Of a stretch of DNA of 64,000 nucleotides, positions 11,158 through 38,619 are shown in pieces. Source of the stretch: Mya arenaria (lineage: Eukaryota; Mollusca; Bivalvia; Myida; Myidae); contig NC_069129.1 in NCBI RefSeq assembly GCF_026914265.1, positions 12,554,269 to 12,618,268 of the forward strand, in the 5' to 3' direction. Both the position numbers and the translations under genes were made by a program. Each line of letters opens with the position of its first letter. Positions within the stretch are counted from its first letter, which is position 1. Under the pieces are notes generated by a model. It saw only the letters and a program-made list of their open reading frames with translations, was not told the DNA's origin and searched no databases.

Positions 11158-14100
11158 TTACAGTTTGCTTGTCACAAATGGATCAACCGGCACTTGCAAA
11201 TCATAAAAGGCTGCACGCAAAACATCTTCAATGTCGTTGACTAGAATAAACACAAGGTCCGCCTGAAAAACACATTTAAACACAATTGTTAAGGAAGATT
11301 TTTTTTACATTGCAATAATGAACAAGTAACATACAATTATGTTCTAAAATGCTTTATAACAACAGACATTCATATAAACAGTTTTCAAACCTGCTTTATA
11401 CGCACATATGAATAAGAACCATTGACCATTTCTGAGTGACCAGTACTTAACATCACATTCACATTCACAGCTAAAATGAATTTTAACCAAGATATATTAT
11501 AACAAAACAAATTAATAACACTTTAATAAGAATCTTTTAGTTAATATGTTAAAAATGGCTAGGAGACACAAAATCATGCAAATATGAAACATCACTTTTT
11601 CCTCCACACAAGTCATTTTCGGACGATCTCACATATATGTAGTTTTTTAAACTAATAAAAACTTGGCAAAACTACTTATATTCCAGTTACCTTCACATTG
11701 TTTGGAATTTCTTGTAGGTCTTTCTCATTTCTTCGGGGCAAAATAATTCTCCGTAGTCCAGCACGGTGGGCGGCTAGAACCTTCTCCTTTATCCCACCAA
11801 CCTACAAAAACAACAAGGGTAATAACTCTGAAAATGTTTAAGCCAGAATGACTTAGAACTTAGAATTGTTGTTCTTAATTTTCTTAATTTAAAGTATAAC
11901 ATGAAGAAAACTGCCAAGCAGAACTGATTATAAAGAGATTAGATACAAAATAGAACCATTTTTTTTCATTTAAGATTTATGCTACAGCTCAAAGCAAAGT
12001 AAAATATGTTAAAAGTATTTACAGGTAAGACAACGCCTCTTAGAGTAATTTCCCCTGTCATGGCCGTGTCTGATCGTACGCACTTCTGTATGAACATTGA
12101 GACAAGAACTGTTGCTATGGTTACGCCAGCTGATGGTCCATCCTTGCCAACAGCCCCGGCAGGAAAGTGCACATGAATGTCCTTCTTTGACAGTTCTGTC
12201 CCGTCTAGGTTTAACTGAAAACAAAAACATAACCATTATCATTGCTATCTATATCTATATCAAATAAAATGGAATGGTTACATCTAGAAGAATTCTGAAT
12301 CTCTCTGTGGACGGTGAATGAACAGGGCCATAGGTCTAGGGCATAAAATACCCATATATAGCCAGGCCTAAAATCTGCCCCTTTTAGGGTCATTTCCCTC
12401 TTACAGTTAGGATAAGCACTTTCACAAAAGCCAAAATATAATTATGTCTTATTGTTTTGGGTCAATAAATTTATACAATAATACATAGATATAAACATGT
12501 ATGTTTTAAAGTGTAGAACTATGTTGGTAAAATGTATACAAGTTATCATTGGTTTTAGCAGAAATGTTTTTAATTTTTTTTCCCCCATTTGCTTTTAAAG
12601 CTGCACTCTCACAGATTGAGCATTTTGACCACTTTTTGTATGTTTTGTATTGGAATTGGCAAGTTCTTGCGTAAATTCCTGGAAATCAGTGATATATGGC
12701 TGCTGACAAAAAATCAGATCGCAGGTTTCTGTATTTATGTTCACAAACTGTTGTTTTATGGATTTTTCTTAAAATGTTAGAAAAGCTTTTAGCCATAAAA
12801 CATTTATTTTCAATCGGAAATATGAACAAGAGCTGTCACAGAGACAGTCAGGGATGATAACAGAGCCAAGTTGCCAATCCTGAAAATGTCTGGGTGGGGT
12901 TCAGGGGGCCGCTGAAGGCCCCCGATGGGTCCAGGGCAAAGCCCTGGTGGGGGGACAAGGGGGGCAAAGCCCCCCGAAGCTTTCCATATTTCAGGGATTC
13001 TAATACCCTTTTTTGCCTTAGAAAAGTGTTCAAGGAGTACACCTTTCGGTTTGGTAGATATAATCATGTTCAACAAGAGACATCCACAATCAGAACAATT
13101 ATCAAGAATCTTAGCAGTGAAGTTTAACACCTTTGTCTTTAAACAAAGTTAAATTTACTTTTTTTTACCTGAAGTCACAGGCATTAGACAAGTACCTGAC
13201 ATTTTGGTTCAGTTGTCCACTTCCCATAAAACTCAACTGGCTATGATCAAATGCCTGTGTATGAACAGTCCACACTGTGGGATGTTTGATTTATAATAAT
13301 GAACAACATATCAATTATCATGCTTGCAAATGTTTATTGTAAAAGTGGTATTTATTCAATTTTTATGTATCATTAGAGTATTTATTCCATTTTCTGCACA
13401 TTTGATGAGAATATAATGTTATTAATTATTATATATATTATTCAAATTAATATCCAAACGGGACTTAAATGCTTTAGCAGCATAGCCGTTGTGGACATTG
13501 ATGTATTCTGGTCCTCAAGCCAGATTTTTCCCCCTCATGGTGTTACATGAGTCCAGTAGCACACTGTGACAAACTAGATTGTCCCACGGCAGTTCAAGTC
13601 TCTCAAACAGGCTTTCAAATTCTATGAAAATTGATTTAGAATCAGCCCTTGTGATTTTTAAGGAGGCCAAATGTCTCAACACTATTTCTTTCTCTATAGC
13701 AGAAAAAAAGCTGCAACAGTTTTCTCATTGTTTGTGTTTGTTGACTTGACTTAAATGTGGTTACATGCAAAACCTTAACCAGAATATCTAAGTCGAATAA
13801 TAAAGGGCAATTATTTTGCATTAAATGCAAACTAGAGTTATCTCACTTGAATAATTAAGTAGGTTGGATGGTTGAGTACCATTGTATCAAGTCTCAATGC
13901 AATACCTCAAGTAGTTGCTGAGATATTAACCTATGTGTGCTTGCACGCAAAACCTTAATCAGAATTTCTAAGTCTATTAATAAAGGCCTATTATTTGCAT
14001 TAAATGCAAACTAGAGTTATCTAACTTGGTTAATTAGGTCGGTTGGATGGTTGAGTACCATTGTATGAAGTCTCAATGCAATACCTTAAGTAGTTGCTGA

Positions 14101-17100
14101 GATATTAACCTATGTGTGCTTACATGCAAAACCTTAACCAAGGTGTGACGCCAACGCCTCCGCCGATGCTTGGGTGAGTAGTATAGCTCTCCTTATTCTT
14201 CGAATAGTCGAGCCAAAAACTGTGATCTGATCTTTTGTAAGCAGTCTTATACCACTGACCTTCAGATATTTACGCAAAAATTGGCCAATTCCAAAACAAA
14301 AAATAAAAAAGTTGTCAAAACGGTCAATCTGTGAGAGTGCAGCTTTAACGTGTGTTTCTTTTACCCATACTTTTATTTAGAGTGGTTTAGATTGATTTCA
14401 TACCTACTCATTAAACCTTTGTTATACATATTATTCATACCCACCTGTTTGGCATGTGTTTTGACCCAGTTTTGGGCAAGACTGGCCGACTCCTTCATCA
14501 CGTCCCCTAGCTGTCCCGTCAAGGTCAGTCCGCCCTCCCCCGCCGTGCATGAAGCCTCTACAAACATTATCTCTCCTCCCATAGGCGTCCATGCAAGCCC
14601 GATTGCTACGCCAGGGTGCACAAGCCTCTCGGGGATCTCCCTCTCATATATAGGTTGCTGCAGTGTACAGAAAATGCATAAAAATGTTGATTTTCATACT
14701 TATGGTGATCTTATAGTTAAGAGTAAATAGGCTATCTAAGCACATAGAGATCAAATAGGCAGTTGAATGTTGTGTGCACTCCCCAACACATAAAGTAACC
14801 AGCCTATTAGAAACTTTGAATTTTTATGCCCCAAAAGCATATAGTAACCAGAGTATTAGGCAGTTGGATTTTAACACCCCACAAAGCATATAGTAACCAG
14901 ACTATTAGGTGGTTAGATTGTTATGCCCACCTGCAGCATTAGTAACCAGACTATTAGGCAGTTGGATTTTAACACCCCACAAAGCATATAGTAACCAGAC
15001 TATAAGGTTATTTGATTTTAAATACCCCCAAAGCAAAAAGAATTGCACAATTATACATAAAACAAGACATTACAAGCAGATGCCTATGTTTGTCCATCTA
15101 ACTCTGTTGTTAAAGGGCCATAAAATCTTGGCCATATAGGCCTTGCTACAAATGTACCGGCATTGTCACTTGTAGCCCATATAAATAATTAATTGTAAAT
15201 ACAGTAAAACTGCGGTTGTTCGAATAAGCGGTCGTTTGAGAACCGGTGTTCCCTTGAGGTCAGAGCTTGGTCCCCACTTTTTTCCTTCTTTTTTCATATA
15301 AAATACACCTACGCTGCATCAAAACCTAATTATGTCGAGGAGTCGAGCAACATACTCGGTCCCAAGTACACAAATCATGCACAAAACCTTATGGCTCCCT
15401 CGAGGTCATAATTTCACACTTTTTCCCAAACTCGAGTTCCAAAATAAACAAACAATTGCTAGGTATTTAAATTTTTGCAAGTTGTAAAAATTGCAATGAC
15501 AGTTGAAAAGCAATTTGATAAGGTGTGAAAAAAACGTTAAACAATGTTAACTCATGGCCAATATTAGTTGATATGGGCATTTTAGAAGATAATTATGAGA
15601 AGTTAATGACGAGAATTTAATTGTGAGAAATTTAAATGAGTATTAAAAATATGACTAAACACTACCATATCGATCCAACATCGGAATCTCTGAAGAGAAT
15701 TCCTTCTTGACACTTTGCTTTGCAATATGGAAATTTTGTAAAAATAAAATTTTCTATTTATTTATTTATTGATATTTCTTTTACATTTTATATTAAGTAT
15801 ACATATAGTATACGACAGCCTTTGAACATATGAGCGATTTCCACGACGCAACACATAATGGGTGTCTTAGTAAACAGATGACTCAAACTTAAAATACACT
15901 GAAAGATATTTCATAACAGACTGGAGAATTAAAAATCGGGTCGTTGGAAACATCGGTTCCCTCGAGATTTAGGCTCAGTCCCCGGCGACCTCGATCGATC
16001 ACAGTTTTACTGTACCTTTGTTTTTCAGATATTGCAAAGGGTAAACAATTTGCACAAAGACAAAATACAGAAAACTAATAATCATAATAATATAGATATA
16101 ATCAATTCTGAAAAAAAGTGAATTAAGATTTATTAAAAAAAATTTGATCTATTTATCTGGGGTTTGTACATTATTTATTATAGCATGACGACATACCCCC
16201 AGTATATCCTCTAAAGCTGTATCATCAATTACAATTGGCATTTCTGGAGGATGTGCGAGCGCTGTTGCATCATGGGAAGACAGCACATCCGTTAGATGTT
16301 CACTCGATGCCGACACCTTGCAGAAGAATGTACCACAGTTTAAAAAGTCAATTAAAGATTGGTTACAAACTCAAAAATTTAAACAACAATTATGATTATC
16401 ATATGACATGAACTAATTGATTGTTTACCAAACCAACAAAAATGATATTGTCTTTCGGATGACTTTTATTCTTCTGACCTATATAACCAAAGCAATTCTC
16501 CACAGCCTTTAATTTATTCAAGAAAACTTTAATATCGTCCAAAAAAACATCTAAACAAGATTTTTGTGTGAATCAATGTATGTTCCCTGATAAGGGAAAC
16601 TGGAAATACTGAATGGAACTATAGCATACCCCGGTAATATATAGCAAATTTAAGGGCAATAACTCTGTGAGAAATGATTGAAACAGAATGAGCTGATAAT
16701 ACTTGATTTCCTCTTGTAAAACTAGCTTTCCATAAAGTTTCAATGAATTCACACTAAACAGAAAGTAAAAGGGCCATAACTCAAGGAAAAAGCATCAAAC
16801 AGAAACATGCTGATTACATGCGCATCTTTTCTTGTATATAAAGTTTCCCATAAATTTCCATTGAAAATTTTGCTGGTAGTTGTGGAGAAAAAATCCAGAT
16901 GGACTGGTCCTATATCATACTATATAGAAATTATAAGGGCCATAACTCTGTGAAAAATTGATGAACCAGAATGCCCTGATAATATGAGCATTATTCTCCT
17001 CCTGTAAATTAAGCTTCACATTAAGAATTATAGACTATAAGCCATTGGTTGCTGAGATATTGCCCAGACATGAATAGTGGGACAGACAGACAGACAGAAT

Positions 17101-20100
17101 TACAAACGCACAGACGGATCAGCCACTACATGCTCCCCAAAATGTTTAGGGAGCATAAGATGTAAATGCTAAGTTTATCATAATCAAATGATAATGTTAG
17201 TTTTATACCCCGCCCTTTTCTGGTTGGAGTGTCTTCTGTTTTTCCCGTTTTGCTGTTGAGCTGTTTTCAAGAACGCGCACTGCAACGGTACGACAAATGG
17301 CCGCCAACTTTCGCTCCAACGTCCTTACCCCGGCCTCACGAGTGTATTTTGATACTGCCAAAATAAGTGGACATATTAAGGTATTTGATTCACATATACA
17401 CTAGTTATCAAATAATTAAATTAATGATTTAGAAAAAAGTTACATAAACAAGAGCCGTCGTAAGACAGCGCGCTCGACTACGCCGCTTTGACTTAGAATA
17501 CAATAACGATGTAATAATACCAAGTTTGGTCTCTTTATGTCAAACCTAACTTAAATTATTTGATACATAAGGTGACTTTGATGCTGCCCTCCCACCAGCC
17601 CGCCCAAACAATGACGCAAGTCATTCAAATAACTTGATTTCCCATTATGAAAATGTTGTTAAGAATATACAAATATGCCTTTCAAAGAAAATTAACAAAA
17701 TAAAAAAATTCAAGGGCCATAATTTAGGCTTAAAACGGAGTTATGTTTCTTGTATTAAGATGGTCGTAAATAATTTTAAATTTTATTAAGTGCATTTAAT
17801 GAAGGGTATAGAAGTTTTTTTTATTAAAATCCCAACTTGCCCTTAACTTTTACTTGCCTAAAACTTTAACCTAAGTCAATCAGGGGGCATAACTTGTATT
17901 AAGGATTTGGAGTTATGCAACTTCATTGGGTGATGGTCCTGAACAACTGTGTGAAGTATTAAGTCAATTGAATGACGGGTATAGAAGTTATTAAAGAATA
18001 TCCCAACCTGCCCTGAAACTTTAACCTAAGTTTCATAGTCAATCAGGGGCCTTAATTTGTATAAAAGATAATATGGAGTTATCTAACCTCATTATGTGAT
18101 GGCTCTGAACAACTGTGTGAAGTATTAAGTCAATTGAATGAATGGTATTGGAGTTTTAAATGAAAATCCCAACTTGCCCTAAAACTTTAACCTGCCCTAA
18201 AACTTTAACCTAAGTCAATCAGGGGCCATAACTTGTATTTAGGATATTATGGAGTTAGGTAACCTTATTGTGTGATGGTCCTGAACAACTGTGTGAAGTA
18301 TTAAGTCAATTGAACAAAGGATATAGAAGTTATTAATAAATATTCCAACTTGCCCTAAAACTTTAACCTAAGTTCCATAGTCAATCAGGGGCCATAATCT
18401 GTGTAAAGAATAATATGGAGTTATCTAACCTCATCATGTGATGGCCCTGAACAACTGTGTGAAGTATTAAGTCAATTGAATGTAGGGTATTGGACTTATA
18501 AGTGAAAATCCCAACTTGCCCTAAAACTTTAACCGGACGCCGACGCCGATGCTGGGGCGAGTAGTATAGCCCACCTATTCTTCGGATAATCGAGTTAAAA
18601 AAGCTTGTTTTTTGTTAGAAAAAATACTTTCAACATGATTTTGTGTATTGGAATGCAACCATAAAAAGTGCTGTCATAGGACAGCGCGCTCGACTATATG
18701 CTGCTTTGTCTCTGAATGCATTAATGATGATATATGTCAGGAACAAAAGGTAAAAAAAAATGCAAATAAAAAAGTCAATCAAGGGCCATAATTTGTAACT
18801 AGGTTAGCATGGAGTTGTGTAACCTAATTGTGAGGGAATTGAACAACTGTTTGAAATACAAAGTCCATTGAATGAACAGTATTTCAGATCTCAGTTAAAA
18901 CCCAGAGTTGCCCTAAACCTTGAACCAAACTTTCTATGTCAATAAAGGGCCATTATATGTATCTAGGATAACATGGAGATATGTAACCTAATTGTATGAT
19001 GGCCGTCAACAATTGTGTTAAGTATGAAGTCCATTGAATGAATAGTATTTGAGGTCTGAGTTAAAACCCGAACATGTCCTAAAATTTTAACCAAACTTTT
19101 TAAGTCGATCAAGGGCCATAATTTGTATAAAGGATAATATGGGTACCTAATTCTATGATGGCCCTGAACAACTGTGTTTAGTATGGAGTTATGTAAACTA
19201 ATTGCATGTAAGCCGTCAACAATTGTGTGAATTATAAATTCCATTGAATGAAGGGAATATGAGATTTGAGTTAAAACCACAAATTGCCATAAGAGTTAAA
19301 GCAAATACTTTGTGAAGTATAAAGTCAATTGAATAAAGAGTATACAAGTTATTGATGAAAATCGCAACTTGCCCTAAAACTTTAAACAGACACAATGTGC
19401 CCTAAAACTTAAACATAATTTCCTAAGACAATCAGGGGTAATCATTTGTATTCAAGATGTTATGGAGTAATGTAACCTAATTGTGTGATGGTCCTGAACA
19501 ACTATGTGAAGTATACAGTAAATTGAATAAAGGGTATTGGAGTAATAAGTGAAAATGCCACCTTTGGCGTAAAACTTTAACAGGATGCCAACTGTAGGGC
19601 GAGTAGTATAGTCCTCCTTATTCTCGCTAAAACCTACTATTTTTCGAGACTAATTTAATATAATATGTTGCTTTAAAAAATGACAGCCTTAATAAAATAT
19701 CCATAAATAGAAGAAATAACTATATACTTGTTGCATCAAATGTTACTTTAATACTTTTTTGGAAAGAAAGATTCAAAGCAGTTAAATTATACTATCATTA
19801 ATGCAGAATGCATCACTTTCTCATCAATAGAATTTTTTTAATGTTAAATGCGAAAAATCTATCATACAATACACTTTGTGTTAATTAAGACAGTAAAACA
19901 TTTATTAAGGGTTCATACTAATAGTTTTAAGGGAATCATCAGGAATCTGCAGTTGTTCTAGCGTTAGGCCATGCTCCTGTAGTTGTTTTGGTTTGAGGTG
20001 GCGCATCGCAATGCTGACCTTCTCTTCCTGTGTATAACCTGCATGAAAAACATTAGCATAAGTAGCAATTTCACATACAGGTAAAATACTGTATGTCACC

Positions 20101-23100
20101 ATAGCAATGATTTTAACCAATAAGAGTATGTAAATAATCTATGGAAGGTAACATGAAAGTACATACCTATAATTTTTTTTCCTGTCCAGCAGGGGTGGAG
20201 GTATGGTAGCAATGTTTTTAGCAGTGGCTATAGCCATCACTTGTACACACTGGACCTGTATAATCTCCATCCTGTCTAGCAGGGGTGGAGGTATGGTGGC
20301 CATGTTGTTGACAGTGGCTATAAACATCACTTGTACATGCCTGGAACCTGTATAATCTCCATCCTGTCCAGCAGGGGTAGAGGTATGGTGGCCATATTGT
20401 TGACAGTGGCTATAAACATCACCTGTACATACCTGGAACCTGTATAATCTCCATCCTGTCCTGCAGGGGTGGAGGTATGGTGGCCATTTTGTTGGCAGTG
20501 GCTATAAACATCACCTGTACATAACTGGAACCTGTATAATCTCCATCCTGTCCAGCAGGGGTGGAGGTATGGTGGCCATTTTGTTGGCAGTGGCTATAAA
20601 CATCACCTGTACATACCTGGAACCTGTATAATCTCCATCCTGTCCAGCAGGGGAGCGGGTATGGTGGCCATATTGTTGGCAGTGGCTATAAACATCACCT
20701 GTACATACCTGGAACCTGTATAATCTCCATCCTGTCCAGCAGGGGTGGAGGTATGGTGGCCATGTTGTTGACAGTGGCTATAAACATCACCTGTACATAC
20801 CTGGAACCTGTATAATCTCCATCCTGTCCAGCAGGGGTGGAGGTATGGTGGCCATATTGTTGGCAGTGGCTATAAACATCACCTGTACATACCTGGAACC
20901 TGTATAATCTCCATCCTGTCCAGCAGGGGTGGAGGTATGGTGGCCATATTGTTGGCAGTGGCTATAAACATCACCTGTACATACCTGGAACCTGTATAAT
21001 CTCCATCCTGTCCAGCAGGGGTGGAGGTATGGTGGCCATGTTGTTGGCAGTGGCTATAAACATCACCTGTACATACCTGGAACCTGTATAATCTCCATCC
21101 TGTCCAGCAGGGGAGGGGGTATGGTGGCCATGTTGTTGGCAGTAGCTATAAACATCACCTGGGAGAGGTCAAATGGCACATTCATGTAACTGGCAGAGTT
21201 GAGGACAAAATATCATAGTCGTTAACAGTAATGAAACATTGAATCCAAGGCAAGGCAAAAACTGCAAGTGACAAAGTAAATCAAGTGAGAGTGAATGTGA
21301 CCTGCATATGGATCTAGGTATCGGCACACATCAAAAGACTAAAAGTAATAGGCAAATACATATTATGTGAGAAAAACTTTGACTTCATCTTTTGAGCAAG
21401 TTCATGTTATGCTTTGTTTGCAGTCTTGAGAACGACAATTCACACTATTCAAATATACGATATTCAACTGTACAAAGGATACTGGTCAGTGAAGGAATTA
21501 TTTTGCTCTGGGTCGAGAACCTCAAGTAAGGCCGATGCCGGGTCACCATGCAGACTCTTCCCCTGAAATCAAAGGAAAAAGACAGTTATTTTTCTTTATA
21601 AGTCAAAATATTCACTGCCATCATGTTTCAGAGTGAATATTACTAAGATTAATATTAAGTTAATAAATAAATGAAGACTTCACTTTAAGTGGGTATCCTT
21701 TCAATTTTGTTCACATACCAAGATGTATGTACCGTAAATATCTTTAAATTAATTCTAAATACCCCAAAAAGTCCTTAACTGTTTTTGCTTTTCCATGCCT
21801 ATGGCAAAATTCTTTGAAAAAAAATAGAATAATAGAATAAATAAATATATGAAAAACTATCAACCAACCAGTTTGTCCACTTCATCTAACAGGAAAACCG
21901 GATTGTTTGTGCCTACTGTCTTAAGTCCCTGAATGATTCGGCCAGGCATTGACCCAATGTACGTCCGTCTATGTCCACGAATATCTGACTGGTCGCATGC
22001 TCCACCAAGTGAAATCCTGAAAAGAATAGTGGATTCTTATTTGTTTTACCATTATAATGATACTTTATTTATGTCCTAGCTACTTGTACATGTATATGGG
22101 CATTTATTTAATGCCGTAACAATAATATACATCATTTGTATAAACAAGATAAATGTTGATGACTTATCTGGCGGCCAAAAACGCCACTAATATAAAAACA
22201 GTACAGAAATCTGCAAAATTGGCAGTAATGACACATTAATGAATACAAACATTTAAAATAGCACCCTTAATATACAAAAGTGACTAGAAAGGCAAAATGG
22301 GTGTGGAGTATTGGAAACAGTTTTTTAACACCATTCATGTTAAATGTAAACAAAATATACAAAGTTGATAGAGAGATCAAATGGTTAATACAAAAGTTTA
22401 TATAGTTGATACAAGTTTGACTAGACACAATGTATTGTATAGTTGTTGTGGAGGAGGACGTGGAGGAGGTGGTTATTGATTTTTTAGCGTTTCACGCAAA
22501 GCTTGTTCGCTGAAGACAAAGGATAATGGCCATAGAGATTTCCTTGGTTTGTTAAAGTCACGTGGTATCCATCCTACAAGCTGATTGGTTATCAAGCCAG
22601 GCGAGTCTGGCAGTGAGACCTCGACGCACATAAACGCTTGTCGGTACCACGAAACGGTAAACTTGCCAAACCAATAAGGAAATTGCCTAGCAAGCTACAT
22701 ATATACTTTTATGTACAATAAATGCTATTTATTGTGATTTACGTTGAAATTGAAGTCTAGCTTTGCATCTATATTTGTTTATAACATCAAAAGTAGCCTA
22801 GATATGCCCCTGTATTTGTTATATATATAAGTGTAAAGGTCTTGTATTTGATAAGTAAAATGTTTCTTGATGTTTAACATTTATGCCTAGTTAATCTAAA
22901 ATCCTCAAAGATTTGTCAAAGTTACAGCCCTGATTAGCAATAGTTGTAAGGATGGATGGACAAACAACAGCCATACATAATCCAAACCACCTTTGTGATA
23001 ACTTTGTCTGGCTCTACTCATACAGGCTTGGCAAAATTTACCTGTGAAATTCCCGTCCAAGAGTATGTGCAATGGATTTGCCCAGACTTGTTTTCCCAAC

Positions 23101-26100
23101 TCCTGGTGGCCCAACAAAGCACAGAATTGGTCCCTGAAAAATAATATATTCTTAATAATGTGTTTCAAAAATAAACAAACAAGAAATGCTAACGCTCTTA
23201 TGTTGTTGTTTTTACAGACAGACAAAAGGAATAACTCAACATTTATTTAAACCAGAGTTATAAGTCTTGCTATACATGTGAGTATTTTCTCTGGCAATAG
23301 GTCTTGCTATACATGTGAGTATTTTCTCTGGCAATAGGTCTTGCTATACATGTGAGTATTTTCTCTGGCAATAGGTCTTGCTATACATGTGAGTATTTTC
23401 TCTGGCAATAGGTCTTGCTATACATGTGAGTATTTTCTCTGGCAATAGATGTACACAAATTCATTGGGATATCTTTAAGGGTTTTAGAGGTAAGAGTTTT
23501 TACATAACAACACTGCCAACTAGAACAATACCTGAAGGCCATTACAACACCTCAACTTGTATTCTTTGGAAAACAGACAAGCTTATAAGCATTTATTTGT
23601 GGTTGCAAACCTTGCATTATTTACAATGTGTGAGTTTCCTGATTTGCAAAGAACATGGGTTTCATTGAATTTAAATTAAAGGTCTGGATAAACCTCGACA
23701 GTCTGTACCTATATTCCTGCAATCTCATAAAAATCACATTCACAATCCTTGCTTCATGATGCTACGCTATATTACATAGCGAAATGAAATGATGTTAATG
23801 TCACAAAATGATTTTAATGAGATTGACATTCTTACGACTTATATTTATTTCGTATGTTGTTAAAATATCAGCCTTAAGTCATGACATCTTGATTTTCTTT
23901 TAACACGATCTTACATATATGAGAGAATGTACCTTAAAATATAAAATATCCAATTACTAAAATAATAAGTTTCGAAAATGACTTATGATGCTACAATTAC
24001 AATGTTGGTGACTTTAGGATGCTAAATAATTATACAATTTTCATAACTTTATGATGCTAACCATTTTTATGAATATATGGCTACATATACAATGTTCATC
24101 ACTTTATGATCTACATTTACAATATTCATGGCTTTGTGATGCTGAATATACAATGTTCATGTACCTTAAGGGATTTCTTCAGCTGGCGCACAGCCAAGTA
24201 TTCGAGGACTCGTTTTTTTAGTTTCTCGAGGCCAAAATGGTCTGTATCAAGGTCTCTTCTTGCCTGGTTTAAGTCAAGTGAGTCAGTGCTGCTCTTAGAC
24301 CACGGAAGTTCCACCATAAGTTCCAGATAATTCCTGAAAATAAGTATAGGTTATTGAATTGATATAAAAGTACATGTACTTTCGGGCCTAACCATAAGAC
24401 AGTAACCAAACAAAAACTTTCTGCACTTTTACTTCCTGACCTTATCATGGCCTGTTCAGGCATGTGCTGTGGCATTTTCTTGAGGCGTTTGAGCTCCTTC
24501 ATTGCAGCTTTGTGTGCGTGTTCTGGCATCTCAGCATTCCTACAACAGTGGTAAGTGTCAATCAGGAATCAGGGATCCACCACAAATACACACTACTCGT
24601 ATGGTATCTCAGTGTCTTAAAATCTTCTGTTTCTTTCAAGTTAAGAACATATTTTATTCACATTTATTCAAAGTTTCATAATAGGATTTCTTTATTTCTG
24701 TGAAAACAAATTAAAGATCAAAATTTATACGATCCTGGAAATGGTAGTTAAAAGAATGTTTTTTTATCAAATCGCTATTTTGCTGAGTCTTAAGTGAAAT
24801 AATTTCATATCATAGTTTCCTTAAATTTTTCACTCAAAATCAAATTACTTTTCACTTGCTAACATGCATACTTGATTTTGGTTTCCAGGTCCATAAGCTC
24901 GTCATTTTCTTCATTTTCCTCGTCATCCACATCTGTCTTCATTTTGCCCCGGAATATTCTCCGCATATTGTACGGCCTCCCACCCTCTTTACCCGATATA
25001 CGTATCTCAATAGCCTTGTCTTTCTTTGCCTTTTGCAGCAGCTTCAGACCCTGTAAATATCATTGCCACAATTATCATATGTATATATGTATGGACATGC
25101 TGCAAAAATTCAAAGAATAAATTATTACCGAAAATATCCAAAGTTTTGGAACAAGCTGCAATAAATCAATGATTTAATAATAACCATAATTACGCTATGT
25201 TTAGGGATGAACCATGTAGGAATTATTACAGTAATTAGCTTTAGAACCTCGATCTGCCTCATTAGAAGTGGGAGAGCCTTCTTGAATCTGTCTGTAAGGT
25301 CTACAGCATCGAGGACCTGTATCTTCTCAGTGTTTGATGCCTTTACAAGGGCCGCACAAATATCTGGGAGGTGTTGACTCGGTACACTCTCCAACATACG
25401 CTTAATGTTGCAGAAGAAACGATATTACATGTTTTCACAACATTTTATGAACGATATCAAGGAACAATATTAAATTTTGATACTTTCAATTTTCACTGAT
25501 AAAAATATAGTAGGCACACTAAATACTAGGCATGAAAACACTGCCATTCTTCTATTCTTGAGCCTTTTATGAACACTGTTATTTGATTTCCTACCATAAT
25601 GTTATCAAGGGCAGATAATTTTAAATTAAATATAATTGATACAGTGAATATGTGATGCAAAAGTCCATTGAACCTTACCTTCAGTTTGGACACAACGGGG
25701 ATGGAGATATCAAGCATGTCCACAAGTTTGGCTGCCTGGTCCCTGAAGTTCACTGCCAATAGTCCAAGCTCACTATTTTGGTTCAACTCATCATCTAAAA
25801 CAAGGGTTAACAATTCAAAAAATACCTGAAGAAGTTACGGACCTTGATACAAATGTGTGTATTGTCATAACAAATTTCAAGTTACATGTATGTTTAACTG
25901 TTCTTATGGTATGGCTATTTTTTGCATGACATTGACAATACCAAGGTTTATTCTACTTTCATTCAAGCCGTAAAGGACATCACAATAATAATGCCAAACA
26001 CAGTATTTGTAACTGTTCTCACCTGCATCGGTTAGTTTATCAAGTTGAGTGACTGTCGCTATAGCGTAAGGAGTTTCCTGTAGAAGTTGTTCGAGTTTAA

Positions 26101-28756
26101 ACCGGCACAAACCAGTTACAAGAAGTGTGTATGATGGTTTAGGCCAGTTGGTTCCCGTCACCTGAACCACGACTGCGGCCGTCCCGATCGCGTGGAGAGT
26201 TGATAGTTCATCAGTCTTTAGGCCAAAGAAAAGACAAGGAAAACATTGTTTCACACAATGCTAATTAGCCTTAAGTTTTTATCACAATATGTCAAGTTTG
26301 ATTTATACTATAACATACGCGCCTCTCGAGACTTGGAAAGACAATTATTGTCCATTAAATATCTATGTTGAACAGGGGTCATAACTAAAGAACCACATAA
26401 GCCAAAAAGATATATCCATAATTGCTATAACACTTAAACCAGAACAAGTTCCTTTATTTATAGAATCAATTGAATCCAAATCCATTTGGTTTTTCTCCCC
26501 CCTGCTCACTTCTTTTAATTGGTAAGTAAGGAGTATTTTATTAAGAGAGACCTAATTTATGGTGTCATGTCAAATATTTGTTTAATAAGTTTATCTGCTT
26601 TTTTCCATACCTGTGAGTCTTCCAATGGCTCCCTAGGAATCACTCCGATTATCGTGCTGCTCAATGTGTTCCTGCCCAGGAGATGAGTTTTCACCATGTT
26701 CATGCTGAAATCATTTATATATCAGTACTGTAGTGTTTATACCATGTTTATGAAGTATGGAAATTACTGTATGATGTAGTGTTAGATGTTCAGGCTTTAG
26801 TCACAGCAGTAGAATTCTGACTTAAGAGTATTAGCCTCAATAATGGGCTTTCAGTGATTTTTTTTTATCATTAGGACATGTATATACACATATGTTTCCC
26901 TGTAACAGCACAACTCTCAACTGTAAATCCCTAACCAAAATGTTTTAGTTTTATTATCATTTCAGCTTATTAACTTCAATTTCACAAACAGTAATTATTA
27001 ACTTTCAAACACATATACACATATCTTTAAAACTGATGTAAGAAGAGGTACATGTATAACTAAGGGGCGCACTCTTTTGACAATCACAACTCCCTTAGAA
27101 CAGAATGGCAATTTTAACAATTTTTAGGCCAAAATGGTGCCTTTTGAGGCTATTGTTTTATACTTTTTTTCTATGTTTAATATGGACATAAAAATAAACT
27201 TTCATGATTTAAGGAGGGAAGGGGAGCAAGCAAGGTGCCCCCCCCCCATTTTTGGTGAATCTGAATGTTGTTTATACTGGAAGCCAAAGGGTAAATAAAG
27301 TGTTTGATACCAATTTTGACTCTGAATAGCTTCTGATAATGTAATTATCTGGACCAATGGGCATGTTTAAAACTTTTTTGCTGAATTCACCATTAAATTA
27401 ATGGCAGTGAGTATGAACACACTAGTCTACCAATATTTAAATTTTCATTTAAATTTTATAAAAAAACTTATGGGTGTCTATCAAATGAAGATATGGACCA
27501 GAAGGGGATTTTGAATGGATGATACATATGTTTATTTGATACAGGTTTCGAAGGAAAATATCTTAAATTAACATACAGATTTTATTTGCCTTTGTTCATC
27601 TCACATCATTACTTACCGTAATTCACCTTAGAGTTCGGACACCTTCAAATAATATTTTTTTTTGCTGTCCGAATTCAAAGAAAATTAACATTTTTACATT
27701 TTATCTATGTCCGAAATAAAAATAAAACCCGCCCTTTTTCTTTATGTTTTGCGTTTTACTCTTTATTAATTTATCCGTATTTATCAATAGTTATTTAGTA
27801 CGCCTATAAGTGTAAATCCTTCATCAAGTTAATTAAAATCCCAACACACACGAGTTTACCAATTTACACATGCATTTAAATTAATAAACACCTTTTATCG
27901 GCTGCACATAGCTCACATTTATAACCTCGAGGGATTCGGCCACGAGGATCTCGTGGAAAGCATGGACAATGTTATACATGTGAGATTAATGTTTCTGCAT
28001 GGTGTTTTCGATTGTAAACTCAGTATTGCATTTCCAACTTTAATTCATCACATTAAATAGTTGCCTGTATCATTTAATGACTTTTATTGTTCTATTGATG
28101 GTTTAAATGAGTATAACTGTACCATTATTATGCTTCATACAGTCTATAAATGTGGTACAAACATGACATGTCTTTGTTCATAGTGTCCGAACTCTAAGGT
28201 GAATTACGGTATACAAATTAAGTTCATGTATGTAATTGCCATGTTTGCATTTAATGCACGGGTCAATTGTTACCACAGCCCCCCCCCTCAGTTCGGGAGT
28301 TTACTGAAGATAACGGGGGAAATGGGCCGTGTTTTTACCTTCCAGGCGGCTCCGTTCCAGGCGGCTCCGCAGTGCCAAGTGAATGAGGTGGATTTGTTTT
28401 CGCACCAACAATAGCGGGGAAAGAGCCTTACCTAGGATGTCACCGAGTTCTAGGGGCATTTTGCAGGTATTTTACCAGCAGTTTGTTCCCGCAGGACAAA
28501 GATTTTACCGTGGTTTTAACTGACTGGTGCATAAGAATCGAACCAACAGCATACACCATTAGAACATGTTCTACAAATACAATTATTAATAATAATTAAA
28601 ATGCAACTGACAAACAGTCAAATGCGCATTATCTAAACGAGTGACATACTTCTTCAAATTCCTGACAGGTATTCGCATTGACGACCCTGGCAGCAGAATA
28701 TTGTCAGCCACCTGGAGCAGCGGTAATTTCCTCGGAATCGAAATTGAATTCGACAT
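11158..28756 (-). CDS. LONP2: Peroxisomal Lon protease homolog 2, complete, 19 exons
   Basis: ATP-dependent serine protease of the peroxisome matrix (AAA+ Lon family). Exons, 5' to 3': 28756-28650, 26704-26611, 26215-26023, 25794-25679, 25400-25248, 25050-24872, 24539-24441, 24333-24165, 23133-23042, 22016-21869, 21562-21483, 21189-21077, 20038-19919, 17354-17209, 16316-16197, 14657-14445, 12214-12023, 11801-11691, 11262-11158. All phases join and the total is 2550 nt, 849 residues (human about 852). The start is [14 protein letters not shown]; a TTG further upstream in the same frame is not needed. The Lon N-domain spans residues 1-220. Walker A GPPGVGKT is at 378-385 and Walker B FLLDEVD at 442-448. 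Sensor-1 ATANN and LLDRME lie in exon 12. The protease domain has Ser742 in KDGPSAG and Lys785 in GGIKEK. The protein ends in SKL, a type 1 peroxisomal signal. Donor GAG/GTTCTA of exon 5 and acceptor CAAG of exon 15 are weak. Introns carry many repeats. Confidence 0.96.
12823..14216 (+). mobile_element. Nested repeat element with 180 bp tandem core
   Basis: Begins GAACAAGAGCTGTCACAGAG and ends GACGCC..CGCCGATGCTTGGG, GAGTAGTATAGCTCTCC, TATTCTTCGAATAGTCGAGC. That tail is shared with the elements at 17449 and 18660. The inner part repeats with a period of about 180 bp (around 13758, 13937 and 14117; GCAAAACCTTAA(C/T)CA each time). It sits inside the MITE at 12595-14348. Non-coding. Confidence 0.65.
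12904..12975. repeat. Three consecutive GC-rich hairpins
   Basis: Perfect stems at 12904-12923 (GGGGGCC/GGCCCCC, 6 nt loop), 12931-12947 (CCAGGGC-AAA-GCCCTGG) and 12959-12975 (GGGGGGC-AAA-GCCCCCC) lie within 72 bp of otherwise AT-rich intron sequence. They belong to the left part of the nested element. Confidence 0.8.
15202..16012. mobile_element. pogo/Tc1-mariner-like MITE
   Basis: The ends are CAGTAAAACTG and CAGTTTTACTG, flanked on both sides by TA, the expected Tc1/mariner target duplication. The left interior (TTGTTCGAATAAGCGG) resembles pogo/Tigger-type ends. It is 811 bp long with no transposase frame. It lies in the LONP2 intron between exons 15 and 16. Confidence 0.72.
16570..17160 (+). 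repeat. Dispersed repeat with tandem core and terminal hairpin
   Basis: Core blocks (AGGGCCATAACTCTGTGA and similar) recur about every 150 bp. The right end has CAGACAGACAGACAG followed by a hairpin, GCTCCCC..GGGAGC, at about 17129-17155. A degenerate copy of the same kind of hairpin (TGCCCCCC..GGGGCA) lies near 61120. Lies in a LONP2 intron. Confidence 0.6.
17449..18598 (+). mobile_element. Repeat element with 160-190 bp tandem core, copy 1
   Basis: Head: ACAAGAGCCGTCGTAAGACA then GCGCGCTCGACTA. Core: about four units carrying GGGCCATAA, GTGATGGTCCTGAACAACTG and GTATTAAGTCAATTGAATG. Tail: GGACGCCGACGCCGATGCTG and GAGTAGTATAGCCCACC, ending in TTCTTCGGATAATCGAG. CTCGACTA in the head and TAATCGAG in the tail are subterminal inverted repeats with one mismatch. 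No coding capacity. Inserted in a LONP2 intron. Confidence 0.72.
18660..19630 (+). mobile_element. Repeat element with 160-190 bp tandem core, copy 2
   Basis: Same family and orientation as the element at 17449-18598, only about 60 bp downstream of it. Head: GTGCTGTCATAGGACAGCGC. Core: repeated GGGCCATAATTTGTAT and GAACAACTGTG. Tail: GGCGAGTAGTATAGTCCTCC. More diverged and probably older. Confidence 0.68.
20150..21158 (-). repeat. 92 bp tandem array derived from LONP2 exon 12
   Basis: About 11 head-to-tail copies. On the minus strand each unit starts GTGATGTTTATAGCCACTGC, encodes 27 residues running from [20 protein letters not shown] to IIQVP, and ends CCAG/GTATGTACAG, which is the exon's own donor and the first bases of the intron. 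The rightmost copy (21158-21067) is the functional part of exon 12. The others fill the start of the following intron. Copies next to the gene are nearly identical, and the two most distal (20150-20330) are decayed. Unit length is not a multiple of three, and reading through the donor meets TGA within four codons. Confidence 0.9.
22525..22700. repeat. Possible short inverted-repeat element
   Basis: GAGATTTCCTTGGTTTG near 22537 is matched in reverse complement by CAAACCAATAAGGAAATTGC near 22668, enclosing a locally GC-rich 130 bp segment. The arms are imperfect, so this is tentative. Confidence 0.4.
23264..23448. repeat. 37 bp minisatellite, five copies
   Basis: Exactly five copies of a 37 bp unit beginning GTCTTGCTATACATGTGAGT, with no sequence differences that I can see. 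Located in the LONP2 intron between exons 8 and 9. The lack of divergence suggests recent expansion. Confidence 0.92.
23960..24160. repeat. Degenerate tandem repeat beside LONP2 exon 8
   Basis: Blocks of the type TACAATGTTCAT..CTTTATGATGCTA recur four to five times with irregular 35-50 bp spacing and stop at the exon 8 donor (24164). Confidence 0.5.
27616..28209. mobile_element. Tc1/mariner-type MITE in LONP2 intron 1
   Basis: Terminal inverted repeats of 27 bp match perfectly (left end CCGTAATTCACCTTAGAGTT, right end its complement) and are flanked by TA on both sides. It is 594 bp long and has no transposase. The perfect arms indicate a young insertion. Confidence 0.85.
28252..28535. mobile_element. 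MITE, TGCACCAGTCAATTG family (LONP2 intron 1)
   Basis: Left end AATGCACGGGTCAATTGTTA, right end TTTTAACTGACTGGTGCATA. The interior is unusually GC-rich (poly-C run, GGGG blocks). The same family occurs at 34259-34484. Confidence 0.7.
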
Positions 28757-34900: not shown

Positions 34901-37900
34901 CCGAGACAAAGTGCAGAAGACATCGGGAAGGCTGCCAGACTGCTCACCAGGCTGGAGAGGTGTGTTTGTGTTTCTTCTAAGTTACATAGGTGTTATATGT
35001 GTCATATATCGTAGATCATATCTCTCCTTTTTACGGTTCAAAAGTTGGCATCTGTGACATATTTCAACCATTAATTTTCATTTCAAAATAATGTTTTATC
35101 ATATTACATTATCTTGCATTTTCCGTATTAATGTTTATTCACATCATCTCAACATAACATGTATATAAGTGAATAAATTATTGCTTCATTGTAAGTTTTG
35201 TCTTCAGTTGTGGTAAATCTGGTAGTTATACATTTTGGGGCTGTTTTATTGGGAAGGATTAGAAACAGTATTGCCTAGGGGCCATTTTATCAAGATCCCT
35301 AGGAATTATTTGTACGTTGGAGAGTTTATGAACAGTAGGAATTGTGCTGTTTTAAGTCCTTCCTTGGTATAAAATTGCTCCTGGGTGTCTTGATGAATGA
35401 GGGCCCTTGTTCTAACTGCAATGTAACATGTTTTGCTAAATATAGCAATAAAATCATTGTTGTCCTATTATATGGAGTGGTGAATAAGTATTCAAGGGAG
35501 GTAACTGACTAACTTTCATAATTAAAAAATCATCGCCAGGTACGATGAAGCTGTTGACTGCTTCAAGAAAGAGATCAGCTTTTATGCAGCAGCGGAGAAT
35601 TATGCAATGATCGCGAAGCTTGTGTTAGGGGTCATACTTATCAAGCTCCATGTCGGGGATTATGTAGCTGCAGACGAGTTCTTCAGATCAGCTACAAAGT
35701 GTGTATTGAATTTTTGTTATTCAGTTTGTTTTAGGAGTAAGATTGAAATTTAGTTTTTAGGTGGTTTTTGTTTGCTTCACTAAATTGATGTAGCTTGCAA
35801 AAGATCACTGCTTATATATAAAGTAATTATGAAGAATATACGGCTTATCTGTTTTGGAGTAAAACCCTCTTTTTAAACACATTTTCAAAGGTTTGTGTTG
35901 TCACTGTCAATAAGTTCAGGCGCTAACTCAAAAAAAAAAAGTTTTACTCATATTTGAAAATGAGTTCACATGCACAAAGTTTTGTATCTGATAGTGACAA
36001 TAGGCATAATATTAGCAAAGTCTAAAACTTTGTCAAGTAGCTTTTTGATAGACTGGGAAAAACTGATGAGCGTTGACTGCCTCAAGAAACTTAGAATGTC
36101 AAATTAACGGGCCGTATGAATGCATAAAATACCTTTGCAATGAGTCCAATATAGCAGATTTTACCATGCATGTTTCTTGAGCAGGTTCCCTCAGTTTATT
36201 GAGTCAGAAGAGGCTGGAGCGGTTCAGGAGCTGTTGACAGCATATGATGATGGGGACGAGGAGGCAGCCAGGAGAGTGCTCAGTCTGCCTCTCATCAAGT
36301 ATATGGACAATGTGGTATGTACTTGCTTATAGTCAGTGATCACTTGTTATCAGTGGTAACTTGTAGTTGGTACTCACTTGTATTCAGTGCTCACTTGTAT
36401 TCAGTGCTCACTTGTATTCAGTGCTCTCTTATAGTCAGGGCTCATTAGCGCTTATTCAGTCAGCACTCAATTGTAGTCAGCGCCCAATCATAGTCAGTGC
36501 TCAATTGTAGTCAGTGTTCAACCATAGTCAGTGTTCAATCGTAGTCAGTGCTCAATCATAGTCAGTGCTCAGTTGTAGTCAGTGCTCAACCGTAGTCAGT
36601 GTTCAACCTTAGTCAGTGTTCAATCATAGTCAGTGCTCAATTGTAGTCAGTGCTCAACCGTAGTCAGTGTTCAACCTTAGTCAGTGTTCAATCATAGTCA
36701 GTGTTCAATCGTAGTCAGTGCTCAATCATAGTCAGTGCTCAATTGTAGTCAGTGCTCAACCGTAGTCAGTGTTCAACCTTAGTCAGTGTTCAATCATAGT
36801 CAGTGCTCAATTGTAGTCAGTGCTCAACCGTAGTCAGTGTTCAACCTTAGTCAGTGTTCAATCATAGTCAGTGCTCAATTGTAGTCAGTGCTCAACCGTA
36901 GTCAGTGTTCAACCTTAGTCAGTGTTCAATTGTAGTCAGTGTTCAACCGTAGTCAGTGTTCAATCGTAGTCAGTGCTCAATCATAGTCAGTGCTCAATTG
37001 TAGTCAGTGCTCAACCGTAGTCAGTGTTCAACCTTAGTTAGTGTTCAATCATAGTCAGTGCTCAATTGTAGTCAGTGCTCAACCGTAGTCAGTGTTCAAC
37101 CTTAGTCAGTGTTCAATCATAGTCAGTGCTCAATTGTAGTCAGTGCTCAACCGTAGTCAGTGTTCAATCATAGTCAGTGCTCAATCATAGTCAGTGCTCA
37201 ATTGTAGTCAGTGCTTAACCGTAGTCAGTGTTCAATCATAGTCAGTGCTCAATTGCAGTCTGTGTTCAACCTTAGTCAGTGTTCAATCGTAGTCAGTGTT
37301 CAATCGTAGTCAGTGTTCAACCATAGTCAGTGTTCAATCGTAGTCAGTGTTCAATCATAGTCAGTGTTCAGTTGTAGTCAGTGTTCAATCGTAGTCAGTG
37401 TTCAACTGTAGTAAGTGTTCAATCGTAGTCAGTGTTCAACTGTAGTCAATGTTCAATCATAGTCAGTGTTCAACTGTAGTCAGTGTTTAATCGTAGTAAG
37501 TGATCAATCATAGTCAGTGTTCAATCATAGTCAGTGTTCAGCTGTGGTAAGTGTTCAATCGTATTCAGTGTTCAACTGTAGTCAGTGTTCAGTTGTAGTC
37601 AGTGTTCAATCGTAGTCAGTGTTCAATCATAGTCAGTGTTCAACTGTAGTCAGTGTTCAATTGTAGTCAGTATTCAGTCATAGTCAGTGATCAACTGTAG
37701 TCAGTGTTCAATCGTAGTCAGTGTTCAATCATAGTCAGTGTTCAACTGTAGTCAGTGTTCAACTGTAGTCAGTGTTCAATCATAGTCAGTGTTCAACTGT
37801 AGTCAGTGTTCAATTATAGTTAGTGTTCAATCGTAGTCAGTGTTCAACTGTAGTCAGTGTTCAACCGTAGTCAGTGTTCAATCGTAGTCAGTGTTCAATC

Positions 37901-38619
37901 ATAGTCAGTGCTGAATTGTAGTCAGTGTTCAGTCGTAGTCAGCCCTCACTATAGATCAAACATGACGTTCATATTGTATAACACGCAAGAAGTTATAACA
38001 TCATTGTTTATATTGTGCTCCAATTAGATAAGCTCGATATCATTTAACCAATGATGTACGATGTTACAAATATCAATTATTCTTTTACATCAACCTATGT
38101 TGTCGTTAACACCTCCTAAAGAACAAATACTCAAGTGCAAAAGACACTGCTAATGTTTAATTGCAATGATTTTTTTTTTAATATAAATATAAGTATTGAT
38201 CACATTTTCTAGCGTTTATGCTTCATGGAATTCACTTGCCAGCGCTACTGCGGTCCTACAGCATAAACGTGTGAAAAATTGCGATCCATACGTAAATAAA
38301 TATGAAAATAAAAATTAAAAATAAATATGTTCAACTGTCATTCTTTGGAGATGATAATTTGGGGAAAAGAGAATTTTATCAATAGTTTTAATAGCAACTG
38401 AGTCAATAGAAACAGGTTTTCACTTTACCATTCTTTTCTGAATTTCAGTTCAACAAGCTGGCTAGAGGCCTGGAGATCCCAGGGGGAATGAGAGTGGGTG
38501 GGGCAGGGGGAGGGGCCCCCAATGTGACGGACAGTTTAGGGGGAGGGACTCATCAGGCAGCTCCCCTTACAGCCCCAGCACAGCTGGACGATGATGAAAT
38601 GGAAGAGGGACTGTGCTGA
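28994..38619 (+). CDS. NAPG: Gamma-SNAP (NSF attachment protein gamma), complete, 10 exons
   Basis: Adaptor that recruits the ATPase NSF to SNARE complexes during membrane fusion cycles. Exons: 28994-29049, 30143-30210, 30840-30924, 31385-31402 (an 18 nt microexon), 31563-31703, 32539-32605, 34889-34959, 35540-35698, 36185-36314, 38449-38619. Phases join throughout, giving 966 nt and 321 residues (human about 312). Family-specific blocks are clear: LKTSFLKWNQDLDGAASEYI early, then AFEQAGL, ERASLMFQENGTPDTAALCL and LPLIKYMDN. The protein ends EEGLC, like the GLC end of gamma-SNAP, which separates it from alpha/beta-SNAP. The fold is a TPR-like helical repeat. Exon 10 encodes a Gly-rich linker (GGMRVGGAGGGAP) absent in that form from human. 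The donors at 30925 (GTATCC) and 31704 (GTTTGT) are weak. Intron 9 carries a long minisatellite starting 17 bp after the donor. Confidence 0.95.
31078..31126. repeat. Short foldback with GGGCCATAACTC arms
   Basis: AAGGCCCATAACTC and, about 20 bp later, GAGTTATGGCCCTT form an inverted repeat with one mismatch. It carries the same GGGCCATAA word as several larger repeat families here. Confidence 0.55.
31878..32010. mobile_element. Small foldback MITE in NAPG intron 5
   Basis: The ends TCATGTGTTTTC and GAAAACATGA, with internal GAAAAATCC and GGATTTTTC, form imperfect inverted arms around a GC-richer centre (CCGAGGGCATGTACGTAAGCCGG). About 130 bp, non-coding. Confidence 0.6.
32772..33100. mobile_element. 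MITE, GCTGCACTCTC family, intact copy
   Basis: Left end AGCTGCACTCTCACAGATTG, right end GGGAGAGTGCAGCTTTA, total about 330 bp. Same family as the split copy at 12595-14348 in the neighbouring gene. NAPG intron 6. Confidence 0.75.
33711..34849. mobile_element. hAT-like non-autonomous element
   Basis: GATGGCAACGAGTA at 33711 and TACTCGTTGCCATC near 34834-34847 are 14 bp perfect inverted ends, each followed inward by repeated GAGTACT(C/T)G. No transposase is visible. I could not find a matching 8 bp target duplication. A second MITE is nested at 34259-34484. Lies in NAPG intron 6. Confidence 0.6.
34259..34484. mobile_element. MITE, TGCACCAGTCAATTG family, nested in hAT-like element
   Basis: Left end AATGCACAAGTCAATTGTAA with CCATGGCCCCCC; right end GGGGCCTTGGTTACAATTGA then CTGGTGCATAA. 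About 225 bp, with a GC-rich centre containing CCGGACCTGG and GGTCCGGGGG. Same family as 28252-28535. Confidence 0.8.
36331..37946. repeat. 17 bp minisatellite of about 95 units in NAPG intron 9
   Basis: The unit is AGTCAGTG(T/C)TCAA(T/C)(C/T)(G/A)T, 17 bp, repeated over about 1.6 kb. Variants are arranged in blocks: the left part shows a higher-order period of a few units (GCTCAATTGT, GCTCAACCGT, TTCAACCTT, TTCAATCAT in order), and the right part is dominated by TTCAATCGT and TTCAACTGT. The array starts 17 bp after the exon 9 donor. Confidence 0.93.

Follow-up and report, generated by a model that had tools for sequence, protein, structure and literature searches.

A probable mirage-type minisatellite, close to neutral, across the edge of exon 12 and intron 12 of LONP2 in Mya arenaria

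Tandem repeats that lie over exon/intron edges are known in amphioxus as 'mirages', in which the inner units are homogenised and the edge units are excluded (PMC3087553; this and the other published systems are cited from the accessible parts of the papers). The amphioxus Gb6 mirage has units of 150-160 bp, present in six and three copies in two haplotypes (PMC3087553). Normal splicing of the genes that carry mirages is suggested by reverse transcription polymerase chain reaction (PMC3087553), a paper on amphioxus PGBD5 says likewise for Adh and troponin C (PMC3902484), and intron birth has been proposed as a possible fate of these repeats (PMC3087553). Here, we describe an array with the same anatomy as the amphioxus mirages (Adh3, globin Gb6/Gb9, PGBD5) at the edge of exon 12 and intron 12 of LONP2 in Mya arenaria, whose genome (1.216 Gb, 18 contigs) was searched; the array lies in a stretch of 64,000 nucleotides, C8:12554269-12618268, referred to as the window. 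Unlike the amphioxus mirages, it is found in a bivalve, counts 11 units as against the six and three of Gb6, and is read from DNA alone. We give a probability of about 0.77 to the reading that it is a mirage-type minisatellite which grew from the exon/intron edge, is close to neutral and needs no selected function; local DNA duplication probably produced it as a harmless side effect.

Other described systems resemble the LONP2 array in part. Tandem duplications that cross an exon/intron edge or hold AGGT are the substance of Rogers-type intron gain and of the potato RdRp case (PMC4974935), whereas the LONP2 array enlarges an existing intron and can be read without a new one. Its units are bounded by AGGT, as are the dual-specific splice sites of human UBC and VCX3A (PMC10809524), but a unit of 92 nt is not a multiple of 3, the extra copies break the frame and their acceptors are weak. 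In human segmental-duplication genes, tandem repeats in exons and introns have been attributed to minisatellite expansion (PMC2812944); 50% of those repeats are in coding sequence, whereas the LONP2 protein is unchanged. Among the titles and abstract openings listed, with the subscription literature mostly uncovered, none describes a minisatellite that spans an exon edge in a mollusc, and the accessible parts of papers on intronic minisatellites of earthworm metallothionein (PMC12783039) and of C. elegans (PMC4039745) hold no edge-spanning arrays. What is new, as far as sequence can tell, is that a mirage-type structure, described in lancelets, now appears in a mollusc and recurs within one genome.

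The gene is LONP2, the peroxisomal Lon, as the first-pass annotation of the window had it, and it looks intact. Its model has 19 exons in a single open frame, with all 18 introns bounded by GT...AG, and encodes 849 aa plus a stop, with the C-terminus ...VDPFVTSKL. The Pfam domains above cut-off (LON_substr_bdg, AAA, Lon_lid and Lon_C) give the Lon order N-AAA-lid-protease, and the stretch of exons 11-13 matched Lon structures in a homology search. The C-terminal tripeptide SKL is presumably a type 1 peroxisomal targeting signal (PTS1). Exon 12 encodes the ATANN/LLDR region, in which we take ATANN to be sensor-1 and LLDR to be the arginine-finger. The intron upstream of exon 12 is 293 nt long and the one downstream 1038 nt, about 88% of the latter being repeat sequence. 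The features of the locus, in window coordinates, are as follows.

11158..28756, minus strand: LONP2 coding span, 19-exon model
21077..21189, minus strand: exon 12 (113 nt), acceptor TCTGCCAG/TTACATG, donor GTTCCAG/GTATGTAC
19919..20038, minus strand: exon 13, acceptor TTTCATGCAG/GTTATACACAG
20039..21076, minus strand: intron 12 (1038 nt), mostly array, with about 128 nt free of repeats (20166-20039)
21068..21159, minus strand: u1, the coding unit (82 nt of exon, 10 nt of intron), fused to the start of exon 12
20332..21067, minus strand: u2-u9, eight near-identical intronic units, from the unit alignment
20242..20331, minus strand: u10, a diverged unit of 90 bp with its donor deleted, from the unit alignment
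20150..20241, minus strand: u11, the distal diverged unit, whose GTATGTAC (20166-20159) continues into TTTCATG

Tandem Repeats Finder (TRF) reports a single array at 20180-21161 with a period of 92, 10.7 copies, 95% matches and a score of 1747; reading it by hand, unit by unit, gave about 11 copies over 20150-21159, from u1 (21159-21068) to u11 (20241-20150), which bears out the earlier count. Each 92-bp unit corresponds to the 3'-terminal 82 nt of exon 12 followed by 10 nt of the intron (GTATGTACAG), donor included. The alignment also upholds the proposal that the copies derive from exon 12 and that the working exon is one copy fused to the exon start, u1 being continuous with exon 12. The further claim that a catalytic exon had turned into a minisatellite was overstated: the end of the exon is repeated, but the exon itself is intact and the extra copies are intronic. 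BLAST of the exons against the locus yielded ten secondary matches for exon 12, all in its surroundings, and none for the other 18 LONP2 exons. A dispersed satellite or a mobile element is not supported, the whole-genome DNA search, within the limits of the search tool, having placed the array sequence at one locus only.

The array has the traits of a mirage: tandem units of minisatellite size that cross the exon/intron edge in u1-u9, homogenised inner units, and edge units (u10 and u11) left out of the exchange. Counting gap columns, 0-7 sites separate the units u1-u9 from one another; the distance to u1-u9 is 11-16 sites for u10 and 31-35 for u11. At the other edge of the array, u1 is only 3-7 sites from the other inner units. 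The near identity earlier asserted for copies 3-11 therefore holds if they are counted from the low-coordinate end; in the direction of transcription the last two, u10 and u11, are diverged. All ten later junctions have the sequence GTATGTAC/AG/GTGATG, intact or decayed; the TTTCATG that follows the last GTATGTAC is taken as the original intron sequence.

A strong donor had been claimed for each copy. Eight of the 11 units have an intact one: seven (u1-u6 and u8) carry CCAG/GTATGT and u11 carries TAG/GTATGT. The donors of u7 (GT>TT, 20524), u9 (GT>GC, 20340) and u10 (deletion) are broken. Pairing of CAG/GTATGTAC with the 5' end of U1 amounts to -9.7 kcal/mol, rank 4 among the 18 LONP2 donors, and that of u11 to -8.1. 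Reading through the u1 donor gives ...VPG-MYR-stop, in keeping with the predicted TGA within four codons. At the starts of u2-u11, viewed as acceptors, the next AG lies 9-10 nt upstream, compared with at least 17 nt in the 18 true acceptors, and the pyrimidine fraction, 0.45-0.5, matches only the lowest values of the true ones (0.45-0.85); this poor context tells against the units acting as extra exons. AGGT is duplicated at the unit starts, but LONP2 can be read with its original donor and acceptor.

Coding constraint would be confined to the exon-proximal unit. All three changes that distinguish u1 from the array consensus are silent (3/3; P = 0.013 if neutral). The intronic units hold 4 silent and 9 replacement distinct changes, for 57:186 possible (p = 0.52), and thus look neutral; several of them carry replacement changes, and u8 changes LLDR to LQDR. 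These are distinct changes relative to the consensus, counted by hand, with two u6 changes in common with u1 excluded, positions after 61 in u10 and u11 unscored for unsure alignment, and two changes in one u11 codon counted as two. Two of the three variants of u1 are also present in u6, and in a paraplegin-like gene described below the array repeats 54 bp of the exon without a mismatch (54/54), a 16-base motif of that stretch occurring at the locus in the exon and the array match only. It thus seems that sequence is exchanged between the coding copy and the array, a possibility that had been raised earlier.

These features suggest the following course of events. As read from the sequence, a duplication would have joined GTATGTAC, 8 nt into intron 12, to AGGTGATG within exon 12, with 1 nt of shared sequence at the join; since all ten junctions show the same or a decayed join, one founding event suffices. 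The pattern of unit differences points to slippage or unequal exchange as the process that multiplied the unit to 11 and homogenised the inner copies, while the distal units, u10 and u11, were left out. Frame and substitution pattern argue that coding was kept by the exon-proximal unit only, and the common variants that array and coding copy have exchanged sequence. We infer that the exon 12 acceptor pairs with the donor of u1, the closest one, and that the remaining copies are removed as intron, which is why the array would be close to neutral.

Published work on donor choice makes this pairing plausible. Where minigenes offered two identical strong donors between flanking introns of 365 nt, splicing used the upstream one exclusively (PMC9225289), which predicts a silent array at LONP2; given that exon 12 is flanked by 293 and 1038 nt, the first of several equal donors should win. 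Several points nevertheless weigh against our reading. Use of the u1 donor is deduced from DNA. The introns of the minigenes, at 365 nt, exceed the upstream LONP2 intron (293 nt) in length. Taken over all natural pairs of donors, the downstream member is preferred in about 60%, a preference for the upstream member (60%) shows only when donor strengths are equal, and weakened donors led to skipping of large exons (all PMC9225289). Seven intronic units (u2-u6, u8 and u11) retain good donors, and leaky use of them is possible, while the start of u1, inside exon 12, has a fair acceptor look (0.7 pyrimidine, nearest AG 31 nt away). The contrast between coding and intronic changes is suggestive only (Fisher p = 0.0625, not significant).

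Arrays of this kind are not confined to LONP2. Edge-spanning tandem repeats occur in 4 of 169 surveyed exon matches, LONP2 not counted.

C8:14067534-14069008 (L032:1569-3043): paraplegin-like AAA protease gene, 58-bp unit, 25.4 copies (TRF)
C9, about 23517453-23518330, minus strand (L097 with L163): kinesin A, 53/59-bp units, exon ending GIIPQ, 818-nt intron
C14, about 58289859-58290672 (L104 with L164): kinesin B, 17/34-bp array with 17 sites AGGTATGT, donor CATCAG/GTATGTTACAAC
C12, minus strand (L082:371-450): TCP1 gene, 41-bp unit in 2 copies, acceptor and about the first 15 exon nt duplicated once

The paraplegin-like array holds 21 AAG/GTAGA sites including the coding one, its exon reading ...LIVIAATNRADTLDK/GTAGAC. 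Of the 95-aa query, residues 2-95 align with paraplegin (105.7 bits, compared with 82.1 for AFG3L2), and p97-type chains reach up to 106.8 bits over a shorter stretch. Across 26 units of this array the GT columns are unchanged, the mean being 1.9 changes per column; as the same is true of many other columns, nothing is concluded from it about special conservation of intronic donor positions, and LONP2 has three broken donors. Kinesin A has 13 donor sites including the coding one, 11 reading CTCAG/GTAAGAG and 2 with GC. Measured from the last donor, the intron remainder is 128 nt in LONP2 and 134 nt in kinesin A; measured from the end of the TRF array, it is about 252 nt in kinesin B and 326 nt in the paraplegin-like gene.

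The survey covered 22 AAA, 48 myosin, 49 TCP1 and 50 kinesin matches, from listed totals of 22, 96, 61 and 132, at loci L011-L062, L064-L162 and L165-L182; the four families were chosen rather than drawn at random, AAA because LONP2 belongs to it. Near-identical pairs were mostly thinned by hand in the later loci, not in the first 52 (L017/L018, L020/L021, L037/L038, L057/L058). When each match was compared with its own locus by BLAST, secondary matches turned up in 9/52, 5/59, 2/40 and 0/18 cases, and TRF arrays with a period of at least 15 overlapped the match at L032, L057, L058, L082, L097 and L104 among 111 loci, and at 0/40 and 0/18 of the others. With exon edges placed by eye, L032, L097 and L104 (donor) and L082 (acceptor, by TRF only) were counted as edge-spanning. 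Left uncounted were single partial exon copies beside the exon, 77-81% identical (L094, L114, L149), exon copies about 530 bp apart at 73% identity (L017/L018/L020/L021), short weak matches (L013, L041, L111, L148), and L057/L058, where the array belongs to the upstream intron and the overlap arose only because the profile match ran through stops. From L064 onward the flank was 220 bp only, so that distant copies would be missed, and arrays with few exon bases can escape. With LONP2 included, four arrays sit at donors and one at an acceptor, too few to judge bias.

Random seeding would give 2.2-5.6 edge-spanning arrays per 338 edges (41 arrays of period at least 30 in 220 kb, every match counted as two edges), an expectation that is rough, given that a match is not a whole exon, near-duplicates occur among the loci, the families were chosen and the density comes from TRF; this roughness, too, tells against our reading. 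Since the four observed are close to that expectation, neither a special cause nor strong purging is needed.

The array had been proposed as a splicing buffer or a route to nonsense-mediated decay. In a regulated buffer, some transcripts would use the donors of u2-u8 or u11, take in the TGA and be degraded, so as to tune the level of LONP2. The donors of u2-u6 and u8 do equal that of u1 in pairing energy (-9.7 kcal/mol; u11 -8.1), and the stop follows directly after MYR. We nonetheless regard a regulated buffer as improbable, and as unsupported rather than disproved, because 3 of the 10 further donors (u7, u9, u10) have decayed, change in the intronic copies looks neutral, and unrelated genes carry similar arrays at about the rate of random seeding; exon-defined minigenes with equal strong donors, moreover, used the upstream one only (PMC9225289). 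That later units supply alternative coding versions, with CCCAG/GTGATG in exon 12 serving as donor and TACAG/GTGATG of a later unit as acceptor, would keep the frame with a different copy (e.g. A>V, N>K). The AG/GT at the starts of u1-u9 is the dual-specific motif (PMC10809524), and the start sites pair with U1 at -8.4, but an AG 9-10 nt upstream, low pyrimidine content and replacement changes in several units, LQDR for LLDR in u8 among them, make such use extremely improbable.

It is very unlikely that an intron is being born here, by tandem duplication of an AGGT segment in Rogers' sense with a new intron or exon arising from the array. The duplicated exon segment does contain AGGT, the codon edge where the LONP2 unit begins is occupied in the LONP1-like gene by a phase-0 intron (DLSK/VLF), and this fate was proposed for mirages (PMC3087553); LONP2, however, reads through with its old sites, leaving a new intron unneeded, and the positional match with LONP1 may be chance. 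Repeats are error-prone in assembly, and the array or its copy number might have been made or inflated there. The units, however, hold distinct variants and a graded edge, the array is only about 1 kb long, and PacBio long reads underlie the Mya arenaria reference (1.22 Gb, 17 scaffolds; PMC10663159), all of which leaves an artefact highly improbable.

Within the near-neutral mirage reading, we raise as a tentative and rather doubtful extension that donor arrays protect themselves: growth past the intron length at which exon definition takes over would let the exon-proximal donor win. A first duplication in a short intron (128 nt in LONP2, 134 nt in kinesin A) would favour the wrong, intron-proximal donor, the downstream donor being favoured in short introns of a human database (PMC9225289); that a 128-nt intron lies on the other side of this length rule suggests that growth hides the array from selection. 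The four remainder lengths are too few to test the idea. If it is true, edge minisatellites would form a layer of bivalve gene structure that is both common and hidden, lengthening introns, passing variants to coding exons by conversion and seeding new introns. Edge arrays recur (4/169 and LONP2) at about the rate of blind tandem duplication, and, with as many as about 21 near-identical donors opposite a single acceptor, they form a natural duplicated-donor experiment on splice-site choice, in which the RNA reads of one animal could test whether donor choice follows closeness across the exon. Exons that touch a sequence-exchanging repeat are also possible mutation hot spots.

Some further observations concern the related genes and the surroundings. 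The seven Lon_C matches in the genome fall at two places, C3 (4/7) and the LONP2 locus. No second LONP2 able to bear the load was seen among them, the other matches all being at the LONP1-like gene on C3, which we take, from its resemblance by tblastn, to be the LONP1 paralogue. Its phase-0 intron (L009, about 8230 and 9484) lies at DLSK/VLF, where the LONP2 unit begins DLSQ/VMF with AG/GT, and it is without an intron at the position of the LONP2 exon 12/13 edge. The exon after the paraplegin-like array (ALLRPGRFDRH...) lies further on, in L063. This array also covers what we take to be the sensor-1 region, which may reflect AAA genes being among those sampled. Within the window, on the plus strand at 36315-37950, a 1.6-kb array of 17-bp units (36333-37950) starts 18 bp inside an intron of a neighbouring gene, presumably gamma-SNAP-like; its derivation from the donor edge is unsupported, 93 of 500 shuffles scoring as high. 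Finally, near-identical myosin/kinesin exon matches are paired on opposite strands of C7 (46.57-46.76 and 60.71-60.90 Mb) and also on C1, C3 and C12, with coordinate sums, taken by hand, that are nearly constant within each contig, as though large stretches existed in two copies in inverted order, either as true inverted duplications or as both haplotypes within one scaffold.
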